Assembly: GCA_903813345.2 (NCBI GenBank)
Contig: CAIIXF020000009.1
Coordinates: 19,121,759 to 19,185,758 of the forward strand
Source: Owenia fusiformis
Taxonomy: Eukaryota; Annelida; Polychaeta; Sabellida; Oweniidae
Length of the DNA: 64,000 nt
Direction of reading: 5' to 3'
Part shown: positions 3,508 to 62,049 of the stretch, piece after piece
Layout of the letters: each line of letters starts with the position of its first letter
How positions within the stretch are numbered: the first letter of the stretch is position 1
Translations under genes and position numbers: made by a program
The notes under the pieces: model-generated
What the model was told of the DNA's origin: nothing
The model's database searches: none
What the model saw: only the letters and a program-made list of their open reading frames with translations

Positions 3508-4092
3508 CTTCGAGAGCCATGTTAGATTTTGAAACTTATGGCTCTCAAACGGAGAAGTGAACAGCTGATCAATAGTGACCTTTGAAATTGAATTAAGTCG
3601 ATCCGCGGCTTACTTTTGGTCTCTAACTGTGTCTTACATCAGTATCATCAATCCGTGTAAGTATTGGAGCGCTGGAGTACTTCTTTTTCGATCAAGACTT
3701 GTAAATTGTTCATCGAGTTAAAGTTTTACAGACCTATTCCAATATGGTGGTTTGCTAGGTGCGAGATACGCAACGAACGAAATGAATTTTGAGAATTAGT
3801 TAGGTTCGGACAACCTCCAGAGATTTACGAAAATGTCCGAGCAGAAACCGCCATATTGGAATTTGGCAGTAAAACGATTCACTCGACTAACAATTACAAG
3901 TCTTGATCGAAAAAGAAGTACTCCAGCGCTCCAATACTTACACGGATTGATGATACTGATGTAAGACACAGTTAGAGACCAAAAGTAAGCCGCGGATCGA
4001 CTTACTTCGATTTCAAAGGTCACGATCATTGAGCTGTCCAAATGCTCCGTGGGAAAGCTATTATATCAAAATCCAAATAGCTTTCGCAGGAA
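3508..4092. mobile_element. Foldback element with ~195-bp inverted arms
   Basis: The segment at about 3557-3753 recurs in inverted orientation at about 3845-4038 with few differences (shared landmarks: GATCCGCGGCTTACTTTTGG, AGTATTGGAGCGCTGGAGTA). Weaker inverted similarity extends outwards to short hairpins at each end (AGAGCCAT/ATGGCTCT on the left, GAAAGCTA/TAGCTTTC on the right). The spacer is only ~90 bp. No transposase is present. The structure is that of a non-autonomous foldback or long-TIR MITE. Confidence 0.8.
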
Positions 4093-9080: not shown

Positions 9081-9689
9081 TTATAGCATCAGGTGTTGTT
9101 TTGCCAATCGGGAAGCTGAGCAGTTATTCAAAACTACAAAAGTGAACAGCATACCAACATAACACAACAGCTCATATGCGAAGTCCTACGTCCAATGAAT
9201 GAAAAAGCTTTCTTAACCAAAAGTAAGGGTATGTATCATAATAATTCTTAAAAATCTTCACGAAGATGATGCCGACTTCAAGGTTGAAATAGTCAAATAG
9301 GGTCATCTGAGAAATCATTTTGAGCCAATCTCTCAATAATGCAATTATAAGTTATAACTGTACATTCTTAAATATTAGCTGAAATAGATTTACACATTTT
9401 AGGTTTGCACTTGTTCATGCCAAATATATTAATATAGATTTATAAATGTTCAAACAAATAATACATATAATTCAAAATTGGCAATTTTAGAAATATTTGG
9501 GAATTGAAAACATTGAACATCTTCAAAAAGTTGAAAGGATTGGTATTGATATGGTGAACTGAATTCAACAATGTTTTTCTCCTAAACCAATTATTGAAAA
9601 CATTCTGTAAAAACACATGGTCCTTTATGTAATGTTGACTGATTGGCAACAATTTAATGCAAAAATTATTTATATATATTTTATACAAC

Positions 9690-10770
9690 TACATATCAGC
9701 ACCATGGACCCCTGTACGGTCAGGAATAGCTCAGGGATCTGTAATTGGACCTTTGATCTACCTACTGTATGTCAACGACATGCCAAACGTTGTTAAACAC
9801 AGTAATATAAGCCTGTTCGCTGACGATACTAAACTCCATAGAAAAGTTAACTACATAGATGATCAAACTTTACTACAGAGGGATATTGACAATGTTCAAA
9901 AATGGACTCAAGATTGGCAATTAAAATTCAATACTAAAAAATGTGGCGTACTACATATTGGAAGAAGTAACAGGAATTTCGACTACCTGATGAAAGACAA
10001 CAACTCAGACCAGAAATCTACAATTAGACATAGTAACTGTGAAAGAGATCTTGGAGTTTATATGGATACGAATCTCAAATTCAGTAACCATGTCAAAACC
10101 ATAGCAAACAATGCAAACAAAGTGCTTGGAATGGTAAAAAGATCTTTTACATACTGGGACACTGATACATTTAAATTACTATTCAATGGCTTAGTCAGAC
10201 CCAAACTTGAGTTTGCACAATCAGTGTGGAATCCCTACATGAAGAAGGATATAGAAGCCCTAGAGAAAATACAAAGAAGAGCAACGCGTATAGTTCCAAC
10301 ACTTAAAGCTCTACCCTACCCCCAGAGACTAAAGGCACTAGACCTTACAACACTTGCCTACAGACGACTACGTGGTGATATGATAGAGACGTTCAAATAC
10401 ATCAACTCATACTATGATGTCATCACAACAGCAACATTACCTAATTTCCAAGCAAGAGAAACACACAATAGAAGAGGAAATTCCCAACCACTCCTAAAAG
10501 CCCACTGCAAAACCTCAATGAGACAAAACACTTTCAGCCACAGGGTAACAAACAATTGGAACAGTCTCCCAGAGTACGTAGTGCAGTCAGTCCATGTCAA
10601 CCAGTTCAAGAACCGCCTAGATGCACATTGGTATCACCATCCTTTAAAATTCAATTACGAAATTGCTGGCGTACAAGTAGCCCCCAAGCTACGTTAGTTT
10701 CAAAAAGTATCAGAACTGTCATACAGGCAATGTCTGCCTAGGACGGAAAATTACTTATAAACTTATAAAC
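9690..10770 (+). mobile_element. 5'-truncated non-LTR retrotransposon (CR1/Jockey-like reverse transcriptase)
   Basis: An open frame from 9657 to 10697 (346 codons, the first ~12 probably flanking DNA) encodes the C-terminal half of a LINE reverse transcriptase. Visible are RT motif SGIAQGSVIGPLIYLLYVND, the catalytic box SLFADDTKL, the thumb region (LGVYMDTNLKFSNHVKTIA), LVRPKLEFAQSVWNPY, and the usual tail ending SHRVTNNWNSLPEYVV. The endonuclease and the N-terminal RT motifs are missing, as expected from incomplete reverse transcription. The frame has no stop or shift, so the insertion is fairly young. Downstream, ACTTATAAACTTATAAAC near 10750-10770 looks like the short tandem 3' tail of CR1-group elements. 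It cannot move by itself. Confidence 0.9.
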
Positions 10771-12819: not shown

Positions 12820-14085
12820 GTATCTATGAGGTCCATTGTATCAGTTACTAATGGTCACTATATGTTATAATACTCCATGTGTTGGAGGTCTAATGTATCC
12901 TATCGGTCACTCTATGTGTGTATGCGGTCCATTGTGTTCTGTTTCTATCGGTCCCTCTATGTGTGTATGCGGTCCACTGTATCCAGCTCCTATCGGTCAC
13001 TCTATGTGTGTATGCGGTCCACTGTGTTCAGCTCCTATCGGTCACGCTATATGGATATGAGGTCCATTGTGTTCAGCTCCTATCGGTCACGCTATGTGTG
13101 TATGAGGTCCATTGTGTTCAGCTCATATCAGTCCCTCTTTGTGTGTATGCGGTCCACTGTGTTCAGCTCCTATCGGTCACTCTATATGTGTATGAGGTCC
13201 ATTGTGTTCAGCTCCTATCGGTCACGCTATATGGATATGAGGTCCACTGTGTTCAGTTCCTATCGGTCACGCTATGCGTGTATGAGGTCCATTGTGTTCA
13301 GCTCCTGTCGGTCCCTCTTTGTGTGTATGAGGTCCATTGTGTTCAGCTCCTGTCGGTCCCTCTATATGTGTATGAGGTCCATTGTGTTCAGCTCTTATCG
13401 GCCACGCTGTGTGTATGAGGTCCATTGTGTTCAGCTCCTGTCGGTCCCTCTATGTGTGTATGAGGTCCACTGTGTTCAGCTCCTATCGGTCACTCTATAT
13501 GTGTATGAGGTCCATTGTGTTCATCTCCTATCGGTCACTCTATGTGTGTATGAGGTACACTGTGCTCAGCTCCTATTGGTCACTCTATGTGTGTATGAGG
13601 TCCATTGTGTTCAGCGCCTATCGGTCACTCTATGTGTGTATGAGGTGCACTGTGCTCAGCTCCTATCGGTCACTCTATGTGTGATGAGGTACACTGTGCT
13701 CAGCTCCTATTGGTCACTCTATGTGTGTATGAGGTCCATTGTGTTCATCTCCTATCGGTCACTCTATGTGTGTATGAGGTACACTGTGCTCAGCTCCTAT
13801 TGGTCACTCTATGTGTGTATGAGGTCCATTGTGTTCAGCTACTATCGGTCACTCTATGTGTGTATGAGGTACACTGTGCTCAGCTCCTATTGGTCACTCT
13901 ATGTGTGTATGAGATCCATTGTGCTCAGCTCCTATTGGTCACTCTATGTGTGTATGAGGTCCACTGTGTTCAGCTCCTATCGGTCACGCTATATGGATAT
14001 GAGGTCCATTGTTTTCAACTCCTACCTGTCTACCGGTGTCTCTATGTGTGTATGAGGTCCAATATGTTCAGTTCATATTCGTCAC
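12820..14085. repeat. 45-bp minisatellite, about 27 copies
   Basis: The unit reads GTCCATTGTGTTCAGCTCCT then ATCGGTCACTCTATGTGTGT and ATGAG, with variants such as ATGCGG for ATGAGG and TATGGATAT for TATGTGTGT. Since 45 is a multiple of three and the common unit lacks stops in two phases, long frames stay open (12877-14055, 392 codons; 13677-14090). Two indels near 13409 (-2) and 13684 (-1) move the long frame from one repeat phase to another and back. No splice sites, start context or homology support translation, so this is annotated as a repeat. Confidence 0.95.
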
Positions 14086-14089
14086 CATA

Positions 14090-15076
14090 AATTTTTTTGA
14101 AAAGGTTCAACTAACAGTCCTAAGACATCATCAATTTAGCCAACATATCGGTTGCAGGGTTTATTGGAAAGGCCTATTAGCAACATATTAGACGAAAACA
14201 TACCAAAAAACGTATTTGAGTAGTGATATACATGAAGTGTGTTAACATCGCCTGATGGTTCTGATGAAAAAAAATTGTCCCTCGTCTATAGATAATCTAG
14301 ACTCTTCGCCCTAATACAAAACAAATGAGCAAATTGAAAGTATGATCTATCCACTCAGCAGCATAGGTTTTATCACTGTTTATTGAAATCTAATCGGGCC
14401 GAGAGAGGTTTTGATGAAGACTAATCACTGTTATCTTGAACGCCTTCTAAAATTAATCTGGACTGACATCGCAGAATTGCTTATCCAAGATATCTCACTG
14501 TTATAACGTTATGGAATTCTGCCATTGGAAACACATTCGTACATGATTTGCACTGAATCCTTTGTCGTTTGTATATTACTAGATAAATAAGGGTTGTGGA
14601 TCAGGAGATTTGGGATATAGCTTTTTATCCCATACTTGGACGTGTTACGGGTACATAAAGCCGGTGTGAAAGTTTATACGGTCTCCTATTTTGAAAGTCC
14701 GATAGACTCTAACTCCTGGGTTTACAAGTCCTGGACTTTAAAATCTAGAATCTATATTCCCTCGGACTTCTAAACCTTAGTAATGAACGTCTTGGTTATG
14801 GGATTTATTGTCTCTTGTGGACTTGTAAACCTAGATTTAATTATCCATAAGATTTCAACCGGACTATCACACCTAAGATTTATAGTCTGGATATGCTACA
14901 GTTATCTTTAGGCCTGCGTCGCAAAAACAAATAAACTAACAAACAAACAAATTACTAGTATGTCACATTACACTTTTATTTGCGAATTGTTACGTCAGTT
15001 TCGTTTTTCGACGTCAGACGTACAGTATGCACTCTTACAATTATATACTAATAATGATTACATCATTATTCGAGAG
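14090..15076. other. Non-coding stretch with degenerate GTCC-punctuated repeats
   Basis: From about 14640 to 14900 short motifs such as AAGTCC, GGACTT, CTGGGTTTACAAGTCCTGG recur at irregular spacing. They resemble the material at 15.9-16.9 kb. No gene is seen. Confidence 0.45.
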
Positions 15077-16639: not shown

Positions 16640-17960
16640 AACTCTTTTAATATATGTAAAATGACGGTCTCTTTGACCTAGATATAAAAGTCCGGGACAA
16701 TAAAATTGGGATTAAATGTCCGGGACATTTCATTCTTTCACTGGTGTGGAAGGAACAGAAGTCCATTGGTGATTATAGTCCATGGTCTTATTAATATATA
16801 ACAGTAGGAATGACAGTCCTATTGAGACCATAAACCCTGGGATTGACAATCCATAGGATGTATAAACCCAGGAAGCACGGTCCGTAGGACCGTGCTTCCT
16901 TGGGACTACCATTACTTTTACACCGGTTTGTAAAAACTTGTATCTCATACTTGAGTGGGTTTGGGGTAGATATCACCCGGGAATATATATCGTATCTGAG
17001 GAGCGGGCAGGATATATTGTATATGTCCCGCTCCAGGCCAAATGCGGGCAGATATAATATATCCATCCCGCTCCCGGGAATTTTTCAAAAGTTTAAATAT
17101 CATAAGTTTTAATTTTTTAATTTTAAAATTTAATTTTTTTTAAGTTTAAATGTTACAATTTCATTGTATTGAACAAAAAGAATATTACAAAAATGTTCAG
17201 TTCAGAAAATGTTAAATATAAATATCTTGTCATTTGAAAAAGGTGGAAAGGGTAATATCTACCCTAAACCCACTCAAGTATGAGATACACGAGTTATGCA
17301 CGGTCGGTTTGGATACATGGAATATCCCTTGGGATATACAATACATCTTCCGAAGATATATTGTATATCCCTCGGGATATTCCCTGTATCCAAAACCTCC
17401 CAGTGCATAACCCCTATATATTTTCATCAGCGGGCAGATATAGCTTTACGGCCCGCTCTGAGCGGGGAGATATAGTATATCTGCCCGCTACGTCATAATC
17501 GCTGTTCCCGTATTGGTTCTTTTTTGTAACGTTCGCATACTGTAAACGACAATGGAGAAAAACGCAGACAATCGCGATCTGTTTGATGCTTTAAAGAAGG
17601 GAAGGAGCAGTATGCCCCGTTAATAATCAAATATTTGAACAGGAAATTCCGGCTACGGACAAGAATATAAAACTGGACATGAATATTTTAAAATAATTCC
17701 ACGGTTGGTTGCAACAATTGAACAATGTGATTGGTATTGGATAAACAGATCATCCTATAGTCGGTTCAGGATATTGGGATTATCCCTTGGCCAATATAAT
17801 ATATCTTCCCTCGGGACCTACGGCCCTCGGGCAGATATACTATATTGGCCTCGGGATAATCCCAATATCCTGAACCTCATATAGGATAATCTCTATTTAT
17901 CCCAAGGGATAGTTTCTATTTTCTCGATGGAACCAGGGGAGATATAGGTATTTCTCGAGG
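16640..17960. repeat. Cluster of nested near-perfect palindromes (foldback region)
   Basis: Four structures are visible. 16870-16899 is a hairpin around GGAAGCACGGTCC with a 3-nt loop. The segment TCTCATACTTGAGTGGGTTT (from ~16950) returns inverted at ~17262-17285, enclosing AGCGGGCAGGATATA/TATGTCCCGCT hairpins. 17310-17394 is a palindrome built from GGATACA, GGAATATCCC, GGGATATACAATA. 17760-17880 is a longer palindrome running from GGTTCAGGATATTGGGATTA to its inverse. Blocks share a GATATA/CCCTCGGG vocabulary, suggesting one element family amplified in place. Confidence 0.8.
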
Positions 17961-28130: not shown

Positions 28131-31100
28131 CTGCAAAACACAAGTGTACACAAGCTACTCTCGGATAACAATTACATTTCGTACGATAGCACAGGATAAT
28201 GCGATTCAACTTTTATCTCCGAGCGGGTGGGGTAATAAAGTACTATCTAGTATTCATTTTGGCCTATGGTTTGTCGAAAACATGGCAGTACAGAGGGACG
28301 TCAATGTCATGGACCATGGGAATCTCTTGTTATAGCATCACTCCGTCGTTACAAGGAGATGTGATAAATATCAGAATGACATGTGACACTATGCAAGAAT
28401 TCATTAAGGCATAGAGTTAGATCAAAGCCACGGTTGGTTGAACATGGATGGCCATAAGTAAGAACTTACCTCCATTTCCTAAAGTGCCATATTAATAGGG
28501 CACCTGTGAGTAAGATGACAAAGCCTAAGAAGCCTAATATCACGAGACTAGGACCATGCTGCAGTAGAAATACTTCATTGTCTGATGATTCAAGATTAGG
28601 TAATACCGTGTACACTGTTTCCATGCCCGATTGCATGTGTTTGTTAACGTGACAATGTAACAGCCAAGTCCCTATCTCATTTGGGGACATCTCAACATTT
28701 TCGTATATCCCGGGGAAGATGTCTACGACGTCCGCTCTGTGCGAATGGTGGGTGCGATGGATCACTGTTTGACCGTGGAAGTGCACTGTGTGGATGTCAA
28801 CCTTGCCTCCCATTCCAATCAAGTACCACGCTACATGTTCCCCTTCCCTCATTTCGAGCCCAATATCGCTTTGGAAAACATATCCATTGATGGCTGAAAG
28901 TTAAATTGAGATTTGGAGATTTACCGGTAAGTAAGGGCATAGAAGTGAACACCCTGGAATTACTATATTTTCACATGTTTCACATAGACGAACAATAAGT
29001 CGTGTTTATAGCTGTTATAGCAGTTTGAATTAATTATAATCGTTGAGCTTGTGACCTGAAGACGAAGTTATGAGATGTTAGACATGTAAGATTTCCAAGT
29101 GCCTTCCCCGTAAATTAAAGGTAAACAAATGACCACTCACCGTACATCATATTACTGAGCCGGAAAGATGCGTCGCTCTTCTGAATCACTGCGCCCTCAT
29201 CATTATTCAGTTTCTCAATATTGTCATCTATATACCAACTGAGATTCTCGTCAAATATGGTAAAAAGCAAGCCGAATTCTCTGTCCATATCGAGCCTGCC
29301 ATCTTGCTTATTTAAAACGTTCTTTCTACAAATCACTATTGGTCCAATAAGACCACTATTTGTATCTCGAACTATATCGACCGCGGAGTAATACGCCCAG
29401 ACAATGCAGTTAGGATCGGAGTGACCCGGTCCTGATCTGGCGGGAACACTCCAATGATATGTGTAAGTCCGCCCTGGGGCAACAGCTTCATCGCAATGTG
29501 GAGTTTCTCCATCCTTATAAGCAATTCCTTCACTGGATTTATCAAACATAACTCCATGTGGATGGATTGAATACGAACGTTGTTTTGCATTGTTCTTGAA
29601 AACAACATTTATTTTATCGCCCACTTCAGCTTTGATTACTGGGCCAAGAATTCCTAAATGGCGTTCAAGTTCGGATCGTTCTTTTCTATGCATGAATGAA
29701 TCATCGGAATATTCAACAAATACTGCTTTTAAGTATTTAGATCCTATAGTGGTGTTACTACGAACTACAAACCGAGCCTTGGAACTGCAAACAAAAATCA
29801 ACAAGGATAACATATAAGGATAAAATCCTCTCTTGGTGTCTGTCGAAAATCGAGGAATATGACAAAAACAGACAAAGGTCACGTACGATAAACATCCACA
29901 ACAGGGTTTGCTAAACTGCCATAATCATAGTCATTGCATAGATGCGAGTAGAAATAATATTGATTTATGTCATTAAATATTCAAAGTGATGTCATATTTG
30001 AAATATACATGTAAAAGTACATCTAGAAATATGATTTTTAAAATTGTTTATCAACTTTGAAAGTGTAATTCTTTGGGAAAATGTGACTTTTAGTTCGGGG
30101 AGATTCCCCATAGACCCTATGTTATAAAATCACAAAAGGTGAAATATCTTTTCTTGTATTGGACAGATAATATTTTCTTTTACTGGACATATTTTAATTT
30201 GCATAACTATTAGAAACATAAAGTTGATATGAAAATACCTCATAATATTAAAGGGAACTTTCTACTACACCCGCCATGAAATCTGACCCGAATGAGCCAC
30301 CCGATGGTGAAATTGTTTACTACCTACTCGCATCTGAGTTCTTGACAATTGTGATACTATATATCCGAACAGCTTTGGAAAATCCCGAATGACACTATAA
30401 TCAATTCTTATATCTTTTTGCCTTGCAACGCAAGATGCTCTTAGATTGCAACATCTGAACTTTTGAGATTAATGTGGGCTTTTCCTGGCTTGAGAAGGTA
30501 TGATATTCCATGATATTTTATATTTTGTCATCAAATACATGTACTTATACCTATCCATTTCATCCAATGGTTTACCGGTCACCACATCTTTGTTTATGGG
30601 AGCATAATCCCAAATCTCTTCCTCAGCAGCGATGAAATACGTTTTAGTAGCACCAACCATGTGACCATCCCCCTCAGAATTGGGAGCATCCTCTAGGGAA
30701 CATTTCGACACTTCAAACATTGCACTTTCTCCGGCCAAAAAATGATCATTGCTTCTGCAGGCCACTGACCAAATTCCTGAAATTAAATGTGGATGAATTC
30801 AATTTGTGCACACACAGAACAATAACCTTCAGGACATACAATTCAGAAAGCACATTGTAAATCCGACTTGAAACAAATTAAATATCTTAAGGACAGGGTG
30901 CATGTTGGGAAATTTTCTGCATTCCTCAATTGAGTCACATGTTATTTTTCAAACATGAATAACTCCTTCCCCACATTGTCTACATCTTCCAAGTTTGCAC
31001 AAAGAGTGCACTTCTGTGCCTAGAAAAGCCTTGTGAGAAGGTTTGTTTTGTAAAATGTATAAAAAATGAGAAAATTCAGTGAAAAAAATTCTGAAAATTT

Positions 31101-34100
31101 TCTGAATTTTCTTGTTTTTTATACACTTTATCACAACATTCTTCTCACAAGTCTTTTCTAGGCTCATAAGTGCACTCTTTGTGCAAAACTGGAAGATATA
31201 GACAATGAAGGGAAGGAGTGATTCTTGTTTGAAAAATAACATGTGACTCAATTGAGGAATGCAGAAAATTTCCCATCATGCACCCTGACCTTAAGTCATA
31301 CAGACATTCAAGTCTCAACATTCAAGTAGCAAACGAGTACACACGATAATTCAGACGATTTTTTCTAAATGTAGGCCTATATTCCAAATCAAATGTTGGT
31401 GGAAGTTTTTTGGTGTGAGGTAGGCTATATATATTTATAAAATTAACCTCGTACATTACCTAGATTGTCCGGGTACATTATAATGGTGGAGAATGTGCCC
31501 GCTAGTTCCAACACAGAATCCTTTGTATTATGCCATCTCTGGAAAGTGTGTCCGCTGAAGTGGACAGCGTGCAAGTCCGCTTGGCTCCCCAATCCGATAA
31601 TGTGCCAGCTGACGACATCGTCTAAGCACGTCCTTAAAAGGGGGAGGTTTCCATAACTGTATCCATTAATGGCTGAAAATAAATGTTTCCTTATTACTGT
31701 ACTGCTTTAATAATAAACAATGCAAAGCATGTGAAATCATTCATGATAATCCACTCCATGGCCAACCCCTAATGCATCTAGTGAACTCATTGACCTCATC
31801 ATAATTTTGCATTTGTATTATTTCCTTGTAACCTTCTATAATGCCCTCGGGCAATTGAAGGAATTAACATTATAATATTTTATGAAGAAATAAATACGAA
31901 ATATTAAAAAAAATCCATGATAATTCTTAAACTGTGCGTTGAACTGTACGTGTACTACTTACAATGCATCTGATTAGCGGCTTTGAAGTTCTTGTCTTTA
32001 GCAATTCCAGGATTGGTAAAACGTTTGACATTATCATCTAAATACCATCCTATGTTCTCATTGGTCACACTAAACAACAAGATGAACTCGCTGTCTACTC
32101 CAATCTGTAATTGTAAACGTTAATGGTTGTTATTTATAATCACAGACGAGAATTGGTTTTAGTATGGTTATATTGGGTTTGTTTGGTTTTCATATTTTAA
32201 CAGGATACATAAATTGCTACTAATGAAAGTGAATATTTATGCATACATGATAACAGGTTTCAAAAGAATAATTGAACTGATACGATTTCAGGTTACTTAG
32301 CACCTTAATATACCATTTACATTCGTTTGACTTCACTTCTTAAAAGAGAGCTTCGTCTTCTTCTTGTAGTTTAACTAGACTCTGCACGCAGCAGGGTAAC
32401 CTTAATACTGCAATTACTCGATTACCTGTTTCCCGTGATTATCCAAAGAGCCCCGTTTACAAGTGAGCAAAGGTCCTACTAATCCCGAGTATATATCCTT
32501 CCGTTGATCAACGGCGGAGTGATATATCCAGGTGAGGCACTGTGGATCTTCTTTACTAGGCGCCTCATCTTCCGTCACTGTCCAAATGTAAGTAAATGTG
32601 TGCCCTGGTTGAACCTGATCACCGCCTTTACCACGAGCACCATCTTTATAAAGAGCACCTTCGTACATCTTACTGAATGAAACTCCTCGAGCATTGACGG
32701 AATAATTTCTCGATGCTTTATTTAGAAATGTTAGTTTTATAGTATCACCAACTTCGGCTCTTATTATTGGCCCTAGAAATCCCAAATGAGCCTCTTTGTC
32801 TGATCGTTGCACTTTGTTGGTAAATGTACTGTCTGTGTATTCCTTGTACAAAACCTTTTTGTATTTGCCGCCTATGAACTTCCCATCTCTTAGGAAATAT
32901 TTCAATGAGCTGAAATATGAACATACATAAATTATGTCATTTAATTTTGGGCTTATTTGTGACCTTGATCGATGTGCAGGATCTAATAAGTTACTGCAAT
33001 TATCATAAAAATCGAGCAAATATTGAGTACATTAAATCAGAAAATAGAGAAACAACACTTGAACAAAAGCAAATACAACGGAACAATAAAATAAACACCA
33101 ATTACAAACATCCCTATGTTGCAAAACAACTTTTAATATTATGTTCAAAATAGAGGATCTGTATGAAAAAATCACATCAGTTAAATTCAATTAATAGAGC
33201 ATGTCACGGTAGTTCTAAAGAAAACAAATGCCAAATAAAAAGGCACTACAAAAGAAGAACCACATAAAAATGATAGGCCTCTATACGAGGTGATTGGAAA
33301 AATGCAATGTTTTGCTATGTAACGGGGTCTTATTTTTTGTGGCTTTCACAGCCATTACTTTCAAGCAAACGTTGACCGAATCATGACATTACATGTACTT
33401 TTAATCAGATATAAATTATTAACATTCGTGTAGTATTTAAATATTGTACATTATCCCTCAGAGTCAAGGTTTGCCACTCGACTTTATCGTATGTTGAAGT
33501 AACAGTCATTCTAATTTCACTTTTACAATGGGTGATCATGACATGCCAATAATTCACTGTTCCTTATAAACATGTATTGTGCAACGATCATGGATTACTA
33601 TACCATGGTCATGTTTTAATATGGATTCACAGATCTATAAAAAGTTGGTGTAACGAGAAACAGTATGGATGCAGTAACCAGGGGAATGCAGCAATTTAAT
33701 ATTATTTTCAGATAATTAAAGTCGTTCTCACCTTTTCGTTGTATTGAGGGATGTGCCATTAAACTTATTCCTACCAGATGGCGCATAATCCCACGTGACC
33801 TCCTCTGCAGCGATGAAATATTCTCTCGTATTTCCAGTATTGAGCATGTTACCATGGTGATGTTTGTGCATATTTATATCATCTGAGCCCTTTAGATCCT
33901 CCATGTGGATATGGGGTTCAACGTGGCCCCTGTGCATATGTTCCCCATCGTGTGATTCGGGGTGGTGTTTGAGGTAGATATCCTCACCGTCGCCATCCAT
34001 CTTGTCATCATTTAGGTTAACATCCTTTTCAAACAAGTGTGTTTCTGCGTCGATGTTTATTTTGCTATTGTCTTGTGATGGACAATCGTTGATGTCAACA

Positions 34101-56969: not shown

Positions 56970-59900
56970 ATGGCTCTTTCAACATATCTCGTTGGAATGG
57001 GAGTTGCCATTGGGAGCATAGCAGTCTACTACAATCTCCCTAAATCTAAACCAGTTCTTGCAACAATAGATTATCTTGCAAAGGGAAAGATCTACAATAT
57101 GGATGGTGACAAAGAAATATTGGTGAGTTTTGTTCTCTGCTCTAGTGTCATCAAGGTCTCATCCACTTCATTATAAGGTTATAAACACGGGGTGATTAAT
57201 ACCCAGAGGGGGGGGGTCACTGTATATAATACACAATAAGGTCCCCCACTAAATGTTTTGTCATATCTTGTTTGATGTCCTTGATTATTAAGAAATAAAG
57301 GCACCAGTTACAGGGCTGTCAACTTGGGACCACCTAATATGAGTGACTTACAAATGTTGGACACCGAAGTCCAAATCTGAACACTTTTGTCCAAAATTAC
57401 GAAAATTACGAGGTACGAAAATTTGCAATGAACATGCGTGACATATACGGGATTCGCGTGACAAATCCGAACAAATTGCGTTCGTTTTTTTCCGACGTTC
57501 GTATTTTTACAGTATCATAAACATATTTTGAAAATTTTTTTACAGACACATATTTGCGTGACAATTACCAGGTAAAATGCGTATTTGCGTGACATTTTGT
57601 GTCACGCAAAAAAAACTGGCGTGACTTCAAATTCTTCAGCAAATGCGTGACAAATACGCAAATTGCGGGACAGTTGACAGGCCTGCAGTTAAGGTGTAAC
57701 AAAGTCATTTTACTGTACTAAAGGTGGAATCAAGGATGTTGATATGGAGTTGAAGGTAAAATTTGGCACACTTTTCCAATATTTCGCTTTTGATAATGCT
57801 ATGATTTTAAGCTTATATGACAATTATTCAATTCTCTCTGAATTTGGACATTTCTAGATTTTAAACCTACAAATAACTTTCATGTCGGATCATATATCTT
57901 AATAATTTGACTTTAGGATTGAAATTAATGGAAACATTACCATGCATCTTATAAAAAGTTCTTCAAAAAGTTTGCTGTGTCCTTTGCTGCCACATTAATA
58001 CACTTTGATATGCACTCATTTAATTTGATATACTTCATACAAGTCAATAAAATATACTACCTCTTTGTTGATTTTCAAAAGTATCCTTTGTCCATATGTG
58101 TGTGCTTCTTTACTGACTTGAGTTTTATTTAAGATAATACTTCTTTATAATGTTTGGAATCTCATTCTAGAAGGAATTTTAAGAATGGTGTTGATATTGT
58201 TTGATGTTGACTTTATACTTACAATAAAACCTCTTATAGTAAGTGGAATGCCCCTATTTAAGTGGAACACTTTTGTTAGTAGAACACTTTTCAGATCCTT
58301 GACCCACTGAATTGTTAATTGGAATACACAGGTACTGGTGTATTTTAAATCATAATATTTTATCATACTAGACTATACGTGTCTAAAGATACTTCCTGGT
58401 TATTTCTGTCATGAAAGTTGATGTTTTTTCTCATTAAACTTAGTTACAGAACTACTATTAAATGGTAAATAAATATTCTTAGAACCTAGTACAGGTACTT
58501 CTACTTCCTGGTTATTTCTACCATGAAAGTTGATGTTGTTCTCATTTTAAAGGGAGAATCAGATCTAGCGAGCAAGCCAAACAAAAAAGCATTTCTAATT
58601 TAGAATATTTTTGGCTCATTTCATTCGTTGTCATGTCTATTTTCTGAAACTCTCATAAGTCCATACTTTATTTCTTGAATTTTTACAATAATGTATTATT
58701 TTTCTATAATTATGGTTTCCATCTTTTAATCATTTCCACATACTGTATTCTTGCACTTTGAATCCTTAATAACTTCACCAATTTATGATATATGACATAT
58801 CTTTTGCGAGATATTGTATTTGAAATTGTAAGGAATACTAGATTGGTAGGTCAATTGTATATGTCACTAACTTGCTCGCAACTTTGTCACCCACTATAGA
58901 TCCAATTCTGCCTTTACCTTAAGTTATTTCTGTCTAGTTATATGTCAAGGACTATAAATTACAATAAAATTACTATTAATGGTAAACAAATATTTTGAGA
59001 ACCTTTCAATGACTGACCATGTCCTCACATTGTTTTAGGCTAGCACACTGTGGAAAGATGGCGGGGCAGTCATTATGGCAGTAAGGAGACCAGGATGATC
59101 CATGTGCAGGGAGGTTTGTAAATAATATAACTTTTACGAGGTCAAGTATTTGTCACAGTATTGTAAATATAATACTTGCCATGTACTAGAACTACTAGAA
59201 CTTTGTAATCCTCCAAAACATAATCGTACTAACAGAAATACATAGTTGTAAAAAGGATGACATTTGGTCAATTTTCCTTGATATATATTTAGACAAAAAA
59301 ATTGGTTCATCAACAGTTTCAGTATCTCCCGTTGTCATGTAATATGCTACTGCTACATTCAGTTTCATCTATTGTCCATGATTAAGAATACAGTATACAT
59401 TATGCATAGTTTTAAATAATGCATAAACTAACTAGATTAGAAATATTGTTAAAAGTGATTATAACTGTACATGTTTATTTTCTTGAAACATGTTCTAGGT
59501 GGCCAATGGGCTTGTATGTGCTTCTTTTGAAAATTTCTGCTCCAGGAAGCCAGAGAAACTGTTATATATATGATTATTCTCTTAAGACATGTTCCAGGTG
59601 GCCAATAGGCTTGTAAATGTATACGCTTGTGTTCCAGGAGGCCAAAAGGCCTGTACATGTATGTTTATATTCTTAAATATCTTGTTCTAGGAGGCCACAA
59701 GGCTTTCCTCCTTGAAGCCTGATCTTGATGCTCTAGGTGTCCGGCTAGCAGCTGTTGTACACGAGAGGACAGGGGTCTCGGGCTTTAAACCCTACTTTGC
59801 AGGGGACATATATTGGGACAAAAAAGTGAGTAATCAACTTATTAATGAAAACCCTTTATTGTGTATCATATTACACAAGAGTTTGCAGCACAGTAGTACA

Positions 59901-60897
59901 AACATTGCCTCTAAAAAAATTTTAAAAATATTTTTGTGAATGTCTGTAACAATATCCTAAACAGTGAACTTGATGGTGTATTTCATACCTACACAAACTC
60001 CAAATGTAGTAGTAGTATAAGGTATAATGCACGGGTAAGATACTGTATATCATAAATTCAAATTCCTAGTGTTGTACCTTACTGTTACAGCGCGTAATAA
60101 GGTATTCTTCATTTGGATTTTGTGCAGGTTTAACTATGAAATTCACTATCAATCTCACTGTCTAGGATGTTGTTACAGACATTAACATATAGAAATATCT
60201 AGAAACTAGACCACATCTTTCTGAAACGATGAAAACATCTGTTTGTTCACATTTCATTACCCTTGTGTTGTACCATACTCCACGTGTTCAACTGTCACAC
60301 TTAGTTTGGTACACACCTTGTGCCATTGCTATAAATGAAATACATGACTTATACATGTATATATAGGAATTTATTCTACAAGCAAAATAATCAATTGTTA
60401 TTAGTTTACATTGTAGTATACCTGTTAATGAATTCTGATTTTCAGCGCCATTTTTATGGTCCACATGAAAGGTGGGCATCAATTGGTGATCTGTTAAGAC
60501 TAGATGTAATATCCAGAGGTATTGATATGTACAAAAAAGGAGTTGATGGGAACTTAAAAGGAGAAGGTCGATTACTTGGAGGTTGGTAACAATTTGTGAC
60601 ATTACTACAGCAATAGCAATGTTATATGTATGTATAAGTAACATGTTTTAGAATTTGAATGTTTATATTATGATTAATATTTAATTGAAGTATGTGTATA
60701 TTGTGAGTTGTTATAATTAGAAAATATTTTAAATCTTTAATATGATATTTTCATGATCATAATTTATTTCAGGGTGCTATGTGATTGGTCCAGGTGACCA
60801 AGGTATTCTGTATCAGCACCAGGAAAACTCATTTGGCGACACATCAAATACGACTGAAGTTCTCGAGGCAGTAAAGAAGATAACATCAAAATTATAG
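56970..60897 (+). CDS. PRXL2A: PRXL2A / selenoprotein U, complete, five exons, in-frame UGA for selenocysteine
   Basis: Exons 56970-57122, 59039-59113, 59691-59825, 60446-60581 and 60773-60897 join with matching phases to 624 nt: 207 residues and a TAG stop. An acceptor at 56959-56960 precedes the ATG, so a 5' UTR intron exists. The N-terminus is hydrophobic (TYLVGMGVAIGSIAVYY). Exon 2 reads GGAVIMAVRRPG, then TGA (59096-59098, residue 71), then SMCREE. Human PRXL2A (FAM213A) has RRPGCFLCREE, so TGA replaces the first Cys, as in selenoprotein U. Exon 3 gives SSLKPDLDALGVRLAAVVHE, exon 4 FYGP and GNLKGEGRLLGG, exon 5 GPGDQGILYQHQENSFGD, all family landmarks. The protein is a thioredoxin-fold, peroxiredoxin-like redox regulator with a U-x-x-C centre (Sec71, Cys74). 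A pseudogene is unlikely, because all other codons and splice sites are intact. Confidence 0.93.
57311..57685. mobile_element. hAT-type non-autonomous element in SelU intron 1
   Basis: Ends CAGGGCTGTCAACT and inverse AGTTGACAGGCCTG are flanked by CAGTTA on both sides, a visible target-site duplication (at least 6 of the 8 bp expected for hAT). The interior holds about seven GCGTGACA words. Confidence 0.75.
59096..59098 (+). other. PRXL2A: Recoded UGA (selenocysteine) codon of SelU
   Basis: It is the 20th codon of exon 2, between GGA and TCC-ATG-TGC, giving G-U-S-M-C. It aligns with the catalytic Cys of CxxC homologues. Conservation on both sides and a SECIS-like hairpin downstream support recoding rather than termination. 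Confidence 0.88.
59490..59690 (+). repeat. Tandem copies of the exon-3 splice acceptor region in SelU intron 2
   Basis: Copies of TTCNAGGNGGCCANNNGGC have their AG at 59497-59498, 59544-59545 (weakest), 59596-59597 and 59636-59637, then the real acceptor at 59689-59690. Spacing is 40-53 nt. Each copy carries polypyrimidine-AG plus the first ~15 nt of exon 3 (GAGGCCACAAGGCTT) and some intron. Confidence 0.75.
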
Positions 60898-61317
60898 AGA
60901 ATAATTCAGATATTATAATTGTTTAATATTCAGACATTCTGTATATGATTTTCATAATTCCATTTGTGTTGGACATTGGGAGAAACTTTAAAGTTTGTGT
61001 GATTTGTTTGCCAAAGACTTGTGATAATTACTAGTCAACGAATGAACAAAAGTGATCTCTGATTTTAAGTGTTCACTGGTTTATTATTACACACAGTTTA
61101 TTACTGAATTCCTTCTCAGGATTTTTTACAAAAATCTAATTGTAAGCTAATTATGAACTGTTATTCCAAAGTCGTGCATTTTGTTAATTGGAATTTATTA
61201 TATACTGGTACAACAATATTGTCATGATTGCTCAACAACATATGTATTTTAACATGTGTATTATTATTCAGTTTCCTTTGTTGGGATGCTTGCTATGGCT
61301 ACACGTGATGTTTTTAG

Positions 61318-61379
61318 ACATTGCTTATGAAGGTGTGGTTTTAAATTATAATTATGAACATCACTGGATGCTTTAATGT
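61318..61379 (+). promoter_or_regulatory. Candidate SECIS element in the SelU 3' UTR
   Basis: ATGA at 61327-61330 is followed after 12 nt by the unpaired AA (61343-61344) and then by GA (61367-61368), within usual SECIS spacing. Basal helix: ACATT (61318-61322) with AATGT (61375-61379). Upper helix: GGTG with CACT and GTT with AAC around a two-base mismatch. It lies ~430 nt after the stop and before the AATAAA at 61487. A covariance search would be needed to confirm it. Confidence 0.65.
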
Positions 61380-61486
61380 GTTCCTACAGTCACATGATTC
61401 CATAGCAATGTTCCAACAAAGGTACTATCTGACTATAAGAATGACACATTAACATATAATTTTTATATACAAAAGTATGATTAAAA

Positions 61487-61492
61487 ATAAAA
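61487..61492 (+). terminator. Polyadenylation signal of the SelU gene
   Basis: AATAAA, ~590 nt after the stop and downstream of the candidate SECIS. It is the first strong signal in the 3' region. Confidence 0.5.
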
Positions 61493-61499
61493 ACAATTT

Positions 61500-62049
61500 G
61501 AATTTGATAAATATTGTTCAATTTGATATAGCCAGTACCCTTAGTACACACAGTCACACCCTGCCCTGCTTAGTATTGCAGCTTTGTAATTGTAACGTTA
61601 GTAAGACCTAACTTTTCCTCATCAGTTTTCGTTCAAACTAATATTGAAACCGTGTTTTATCATTTGAACTAGGGTTTACATGTACTTCATCCTCACATGT
61701 TCATAAATCGTCATCATCAACTTTTACTTCACTTACAAATGAAAATTGAATATCAAGATAAAATTCATAGAGCAAACCAGACACTCTGAGCAAACGAACA
61801 CTGGTAGCTCCACCTTTATAAGTGACTAGAAATATTTGATTCTTTTGGGTAGCCCTGTATGAATGTGCTTTGTCAACAATTTTTGTTGAGATTCAAAATA
61901 ATTAAGATGGGCTTATGTTTAGAAATCAGGTTTCATTGTAAACCTCCCACCGCCACCTTACTACTTTACTATCTTTCTAAAAGTTGTGTTTACTCCCCCC
62001 CCAAAAAAAAAACCCCATCTAGTTCTAGAGAGACAAGTCTTCAAAAAGG
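61500..62049. other. Intergenic region between convergent SelU and Cys-rich protein genes
   Basis: Non-coding, with a short C/A run at 61996-62012. The minus-strand polyadenylation signal of the next gene is at 62050-62055. Confidence 0.5.

Follow-up and report, generated by a model that had tools for sequence, protein, structure and literature searches.

UGA codon 71 of a selenoprotein U1 (PRXL2A) gene of Owenia fusiformis very probably specifies selenocysteine: a 3′ UTR SECIS candidate and a predicted hairpin across an exon junction

The locus analyzed here raises the question of whether a TGA triplet that interrupts an otherwise open gene is a true stop, an error, or a codon read as selenocysteine (Sec). 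In the window, i.e., the whole stretch of 64,000 nucleotides that was analyzed, five exons located between positions 56970 and 60897 were joined, and this yielded 624 nt that account for 207 residues plus the final TAG. The gene and all the features assigned to it below lie on the plus strand, its four introns are all of the GT-AG type, and a stop codon is present in frame upstream of the start codon. Exon 1 (56970-57122, 51 codons) carries the start codon and an open frame, encodes an N-terminus that is hydrophobic by inspection, and ends at a gtgagt donor. Exon 2 (59039-59113, 25 codons) is preceded by AG and followed by GT, is in phase 0 at both ends, and its translation reads ASTLWKDGGAVIMAVRRPG*SMCRE, so that it holds both the UGA and the entire redox motif. 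It is followed by exon 3 (59691-59825, 45 codons), exon 4 (60446-60581) and exon 5 (60773-60897), which ends with the TAG stop. The exon 4 donor (60582, gttggt) was selected as the one that keeps the frame; a second donor-like GT (gtaaca) is located 4 nt downstream, and by inspection its use would shift the frame. The sole internal stop in the joined frame is the TGA at 59096-59098, which is codon 71 and is found in the context RRPG-*-SMCREE. An earlier note on this DNA had described the TGA as the only in-frame stop of an otherwise intact five-exon gene, and the exact joining of the exons bears this out; it had also warned that a standard gene caller would truncate the protein at residue 70, and translation up to the TGA indeed gives 70 residues.

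Judged from sequence comparisons, the product is a member of the peroxiredoxin-like-2 (PRXL2) family and most likely belongs to its PRXL2A/SelU1 branch, because of a Pfam match and of the scores obtained with PRXL2B and with uncurated PRXL2A and PRXL2C sequences, on which the assignment to the branch leans. The Pfam family PF13911 (AhpC/TSA antioxidant enzyme) was matched by residues 80-185, i.e., downstream of the TGA (55 bits, E 1.2e-14; the cut-off is 27 bits). The best phmmer matches among the sequences of solved structures were those of the prostamide/prostaglandin F synthase PRXL2B, 9us9 (57.4 bits, E 1.3e-14) and 9usa (48.3 bits). Both cysteines of the CVVC motif of 9us9 are aligned with the proposed Sec71 and Cys74, and the corresponding residues of 9usa are two Ser, so that U71-S-M-C74 occupies the conserved place of the U/C-x-x-C redox motif; in the uncurated PRXL2A sequence, too, the first Cys of C-x-x-C falls opposite codon 71. 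An alignment with PRXL2A, which the earlier note had called for, was made with the uncurated mammalian sequence and scored 160 bits, 95 of 209 columns (45%) being identical. The uncurated mammalian PRXL2C gave 34 bits, and the comparison of both blastp values with the 57 bits of PRXL2B has to be read with the use of different programs (blastp and phmmer) in mind. Exon 2 aligned over its length with the uncurated PRXL2A, and in part with PRXL2B.

The gene presents a feature of Sec-containing SelU1, an in-frame UGA at the catalytic position of an otherwise open gene. The presence of the TGA inside the coding frame is more than chance, with the protein running on into its main Pfam match and the TGA falling opposite the first Cys of CxxC in PRXL2B 9us9; the alignment with this CVVC motif agrees with the placement of the TGA at the first catalytic Cys that had been claimed before. 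Searches for relatives of the protein gave 3 pattern matches in viral contigs and 27 in prokaryotic genome contigs, none of them confirmed, and a DNA pattern for RRPG-U-x-x-C-REE had 0 matches in viral contigs. These results say little, because the collections consisted of viruses and prokaryotes.

The earlier note had made its reading depend on the presence of a SECIS in the mature 3′ UTR, and a candidate was found at 61318-61379, between the stop codon at 60897 and an AATAAA at 61486. Since the candidate polyadenylation signals (61480-61491; ATTAAA at 61480 and AATAAA at 61486) follow it, the element would be part of the mature 3′ UTR. The Rfam SECIS_1 model (RF00031) was matched here from its first to its last position with 21.3 bits. 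We therefore name it a SECIS candidate and not an Rfam member, because this value is lower than the gathering score of 35, which is a curator's cut-off and not a biological definition. The E value over 4227 families was 1.5 when 5.5 kb were searched and 0.84 when 3.1 kb were searched; the printed values divided by 4227 correspond to single-family E values of about 4e-4 and 2e-4, respectively. No second SECIS_1 match was obtained in 1-64000 when this region was searched with Rfam piecewise at E up to 10. A single Rfam search of the whole window, also at E up to 10, returned no SECIS_1 match, the one at 61318-61379 included, because at that size this match should exceed an E of 10.

The segment 61270-61440 folds with -51.1 kcal/mol (shuffles: mean -35.4, sd 3.8; z -4.11; 0 of 200 as low) into a long basal stem topped by a SECIS architecture. 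In an internal loop, flanked by helices on both sides, the 5′ AUGA (61327-61330) faces a GGAU (61366-61369), an arrangement that permits U.U, G.A and A.G contacts, and the apical loop contains an AAA (61343-61345) at a distance of 11 nt above the quartet. The 3′ side of the non-Watson-Crick core of a SECIS has the form NGAN, and the candidate combines an AUGA/NGAN core, an apical AA at about 11 nt, flanking helices and a position in the 3′ UTR. AUGA_AA is the usual SECIS form according to section 11 of a 2012 survey (PMC3473315). The basal stem (61275-61422), with the SECIS core towards its top, is built from the arms 61275-61298 and 61400-61422 (CCTTTGTTGG.. / ..CCAACAAAGG), which form 23 pairs with one bulge. 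The helix I of a SECIS is usually much shorter than this stem. The idea that the stem is a window-wide repeat was rejected, and its 3′ arm occurs once in the window when up to 3 mismatches are allowed. The SECIS shape was the minimum-energy fold in pieces of 171, 148, 119, 76 and 64 nt; a 96-nt piece adopted another fold, which was no more stable than those of its shuffles (z 0.20). The mean pairing probability of the core was 0.67 at the three lengths that include the basal stem (119-171 nt), 0.22 at 96 nt, 0.36 at 76 nt and 0.86 at 64 nt.

We then asked how rare such an element is. A strict pattern, which required an AUGA, an AA located 9-12 nt above the quartet, an NGAU, 8 or more helix II pairs and 5 or more contiguous helix I pairs, was found at a single place on both strands of the window, and this was the candidate, in two registers. 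The average over 60 shuffled 64-kb strands was 0.13 matches, and a match occurred in 15 of 4000 shuffles of the 3′ UTR (60898-61560); this rarity is optimistic, because the candidate was already known when the pattern was composed. A loose scan with folding energies returned 8 places on each strand of the window (8 rows for the plus and 11 for the minus strand), among which the candidate was the only match in the 3′ UTR and ranked 4 of 8 on the plus strand and 5 of 16 on both strands. Because of these ranks the predicted SECIS structure alone is modest evidence, and the case for a SECIS is carried by its position in the gene and by its covariance score.

A second RNA structure was predicted directly after the UGA. 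It is a hairpin of the joined mRNA that starts after a spacer of 8 nt from the UGA, contains 13 pairs and one bulge, and is capped by an ACAA loop. Intron 2 splits its 5′ arm, of which 7 nt are located in exon 2 (59107-59113) and 6 nt in exon 3; the exon 3 part (59691-59714) further contains the loop (59697-59700) and the 3′ arm (59701-59714), and the two parts are joined by splicing. The 85 nt after the UGA fold with -32.5 kcal/mol in the spliced form versus -13.8 kcal/mol in the unspliced form, which folds differently. The 50-nt stretch that begins 6 nt after the UGA has a folding energy of -21.1 kcal/mol, and among synonymous recodings, a null that was run after the hairpin had been seen, the mean was -8.2 (sd 3.2) and 1 of 5000 was as low. 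When synonymous codons were permuted within the gene, 8 of 5000 were as low as the hairpin, and with uniform codon choice the counts were 1, 2 and 8 of 3000 at 42, 50 and 60 nt, respectively. Dinucleotide shuffles reached the observed energy in 7 of 300 cases at 50 nt (z -2.25), 9 of 300 for the 60-nt piece that begins 3 nt after the UGA (z -2.07), 14 of 300 at 70 nt (z -1.95) and 32 of 300 at 90 nt (z -1.35), and for the 52-nt piece from the UGA on in 2 of 200 (z -2.96). By this measure the hairpin stands out only to a moderate degree, which declines as the piece gets longer. When the 50-nt stretches of the joined coding sequence plus 3′ UTR (to 61520) are ranked by energy, the 25 lowest all lie around the UGA, and the best 50-nt stretch of the coding sequence that starts more than 50 nt from the UGA region has an energy of -16.0.

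Selenocysteine redefinition elements (SREs) are described as stem-loops downstream of Sec UGAs, and that of SELENON was reported to stimulate recoding (PMC8704476, PMC4561486). As a predicted stable stem-loop a few nt downstream of the proposed Sec UGA, the hairpin resembles this description. Because it is split between exon 2 and exon 3, it should form only in correctly spliced mRNA, and we tentatively suggest that, if it helps to redefine the UGA, it would link Sec insertion to the splicing of intron 2, a reading that we regard as possible, with the balance of probability against it. Within intron 2, the acceptor and the start of exon 3 are repeated three further times (59493-59516, 59592-59615 and 59632-59655), a short way upstream of the genuine copy at 59685-59708, in the form TTCYAGG[A/T]GGCCAA..GGCNTGTA; the chance expectation of such copies was 0.00 (100 shuffles), and Tandem Repeats Finder reported no array at these positions. 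In the phase of exon 2 the copies read VANGLV, VANRLV and EAKRPV, which resemble the EATRLS of exon 3. The use of a copy as the true start of exon 3 was rejected, as stops are encountered at codons 25, 31 and 13 in the phase of exon 2, and in the own frame of exon 3 the codon directly before the exon is TAG. The copies might serve as decoys or as alternative 3′ splice sites, or might have been left behind by duplication; under the same tentative proposal of a link with splicing, they could act as decoys.

Three other explanations of the TGA have to be weighed against Sec insertion. The triplet could stem from an error of sequencing or assembly, or a Cys codon could recently have mutated to a stop, so that the gene would be a Cys form or a young pseudogene. 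TGA is one base away from TGT and TGC, the analysis covered one sequence of the locus, and Cys-form SelU1 proteins exist in mammals and frogs according to the 2012 survey (PMC3473315). However, the rest of the frame is intact, a SECIS candidate in the right place and a hairpin directly after the UGA would both have to be coincidences, and the same survey reports the SelU1 of other invertebrates with Sec, hence we consider an error or mutation very improbable.

The UGA could also be read through by a near-cognate tRNA, without selenium and with the help of the hairpin, as proposed for the insect SPS1-UGA (PMC4561486). The strength of the hairpin and the score of the SECIS candidate, under the Rfam threshold, would fit with this, but the UGA coincides with the catalytic Cys/Sec position of the family, and a SECIS-like element is present in the 3′ UTR here, whereas SPS1-UGA is described as having none (PMC4561486); selenium-free readthrough is therefore given hardly any weight. 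Nor do we give more credit to the view that exon 2 is a mostly skipped cassette exon, the main product being a protein of 182 residues without the redox motif. Skipping would preserve the frame, because the exon has 75 nt and phase 0 on both sides, and its donor (gtttgt) is off consensus by inspection; yet the catalytic part of the family is encoded by this exon, whose translation aligns with PRXL2A (uncurated sequence) and partly with PRXL2B.

We infer that the gene is, with high confidence, an animal selenoprotein U1 (PRXL2A) gene in which UGA codon 71 is read as Sec by virtue of the SECIS in the 3′ UTR, with the hairpin probably aiding, and whose product is a thioredoxin-fold protein with a U-x-x-C motif. 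The proposal of Sec at the catalytic position, already made in the earlier note, is supported by the open frame, the family match, the SECIS candidate and the post-UGA hairpin. In the mechanism that we propose, the SECIS would serve to recruit SBP2 together with the Sec-specific elongation factor; the hairpin located 8 nt after the UGA would probably disfavour termination and raise Sec insertion. The resulting thioredoxin-fold protein would carry a U-x-x-C redox pair, with Sec71 as the residue that attacks the substrate and Cys74 as the resolving one. Under selenium shortage, translation would terminate at the UGA with three exon junctions downstream (15, 150 and 286 nt after the UGA in the joined mRNA); because of these junctions, a failure of Sec insertion would probably expose the mRNA to nonsense-mediated decay, following the general model of this process as presented in PMC8704476.

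Elsewhere in the window, a Pfam scan of the open reading frames (9 of 40 ORFs) accompanied the analysis. The segment 599-1366 of the minus strand encodes the N-terminal part of a tektin (PF03148, E 1.6e-40, profile positions 1-122). Multicopper oxidase stretches, also on the minus strand, were found at 28466-28900 (PF07731) and at 29115-29924 and 32414-33031 (PF07732); the stretches between 28466 and 33031 look like one or two ceruloplasmin/hephaestin-like genes, and ORFs of the same strand up to 35887 look similar to them by eye. The tektin and multicopper oxidase exons, as well as an identity to PRXL2A of only 45%, fit with an invertebrate animal. On the plus strand, 9639-10697 carries a fragment of a retroelement reverse transcriptase (PF00078, E 5.6e-12), and 12871-14090 is a repetitive segment in which several frames are open and VTLCVYEVHC / RSLYVCMRS units recur, a picture that a tandem array would give. 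MicroRNA precursor families were matched at 17307-17396, 17741-17897, 3631-3966 and 30977-31204, with low E values and scores far below the gathering scores; the matches near 17.3 and 17.8 kb occur on both strands, and these places are more probably inverted-repeat elements than microRNA genes. No tRNA was predicted in the window by ARAGORN.

When the gene is compared with the published distribution of SelU, a Sec at this site is the expected state. Section 8 of the 2012 survey counts more than 10 Sec-containing SelU proteins in six invertebrates, three of which are SelU1, and in its tree all the invertebrate SelU1 proteins have Sec, as do those of fish, birds and reptiles, with the Cys form found in mammals (platypus excepted) and in two frogs (PMC3473315). 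Hence the reading of the earlier note that the protein keeps Sec is right and unsurprising, since it represents no exception for an invertebrate, and its statement that SelU has Sec in some lineages and Cys in others, mammals included, agrees with the same section. The contrast that it drew with a vertebrate-type C-x-x-C stands for mammals (except platypus) and the two frogs, but not for fish, birds and reptiles, which keep Sec (PMC3473315); furthermore, SelU1 has been placed in the ancestral vertebrate selenoproteome (PMC3316567). The gene is thus a well-formed, ordinary addition to the already known family of Sec-containing SelU1, and it illustrates how a standard gene caller would end such a protein after 70 residues.

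With PRXL2A/SelU1 (FAM213A, C10orf58), whose Sec form is that of invertebrates, fish, birds and reptiles, the protein shares the peroxiredoxin-like-2 domain and the RRPG-[U/C]-x-x-C-REE motif, the motif of the relative being taken from the uncurated sequence; the middle residues of the motif are SM here and FL in the uncurated mammalian protein. Sec is reported in this subfamily (PMC3473315), and the 3′ UTR of the present gene has a SECIS candidate. The placement of this candidate on a long basal stem, and the predicted post-UGA hairpin across an exon junction, are further features described here for this gene. PRXL2B (SelU3; 9us9 and 9usa) belongs to the same family, with the CxxC motif aligned at 57.4 bits, but it is a Cys form and scores lower than PRXL2A, as far as values from different programs can be compared. 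The SREs of SELENON, SELENOT and SPS2 have in common with the predicted hairpin that a stem-loop is located downstream of the Sec UGA within the coding sequence (PMC8704476, PMC4561486), whereas here two exons together form the stem-loop. No SRE in SelU1 was found in the literature searched, a body of work that left most subscription papers and supplements outside its reach, so that no claim of novelty is made, even if the junction-spanning hairpin might be new. If this hairpin proves to be conserved, it would be a simple case of a recoding signal built by splicing.
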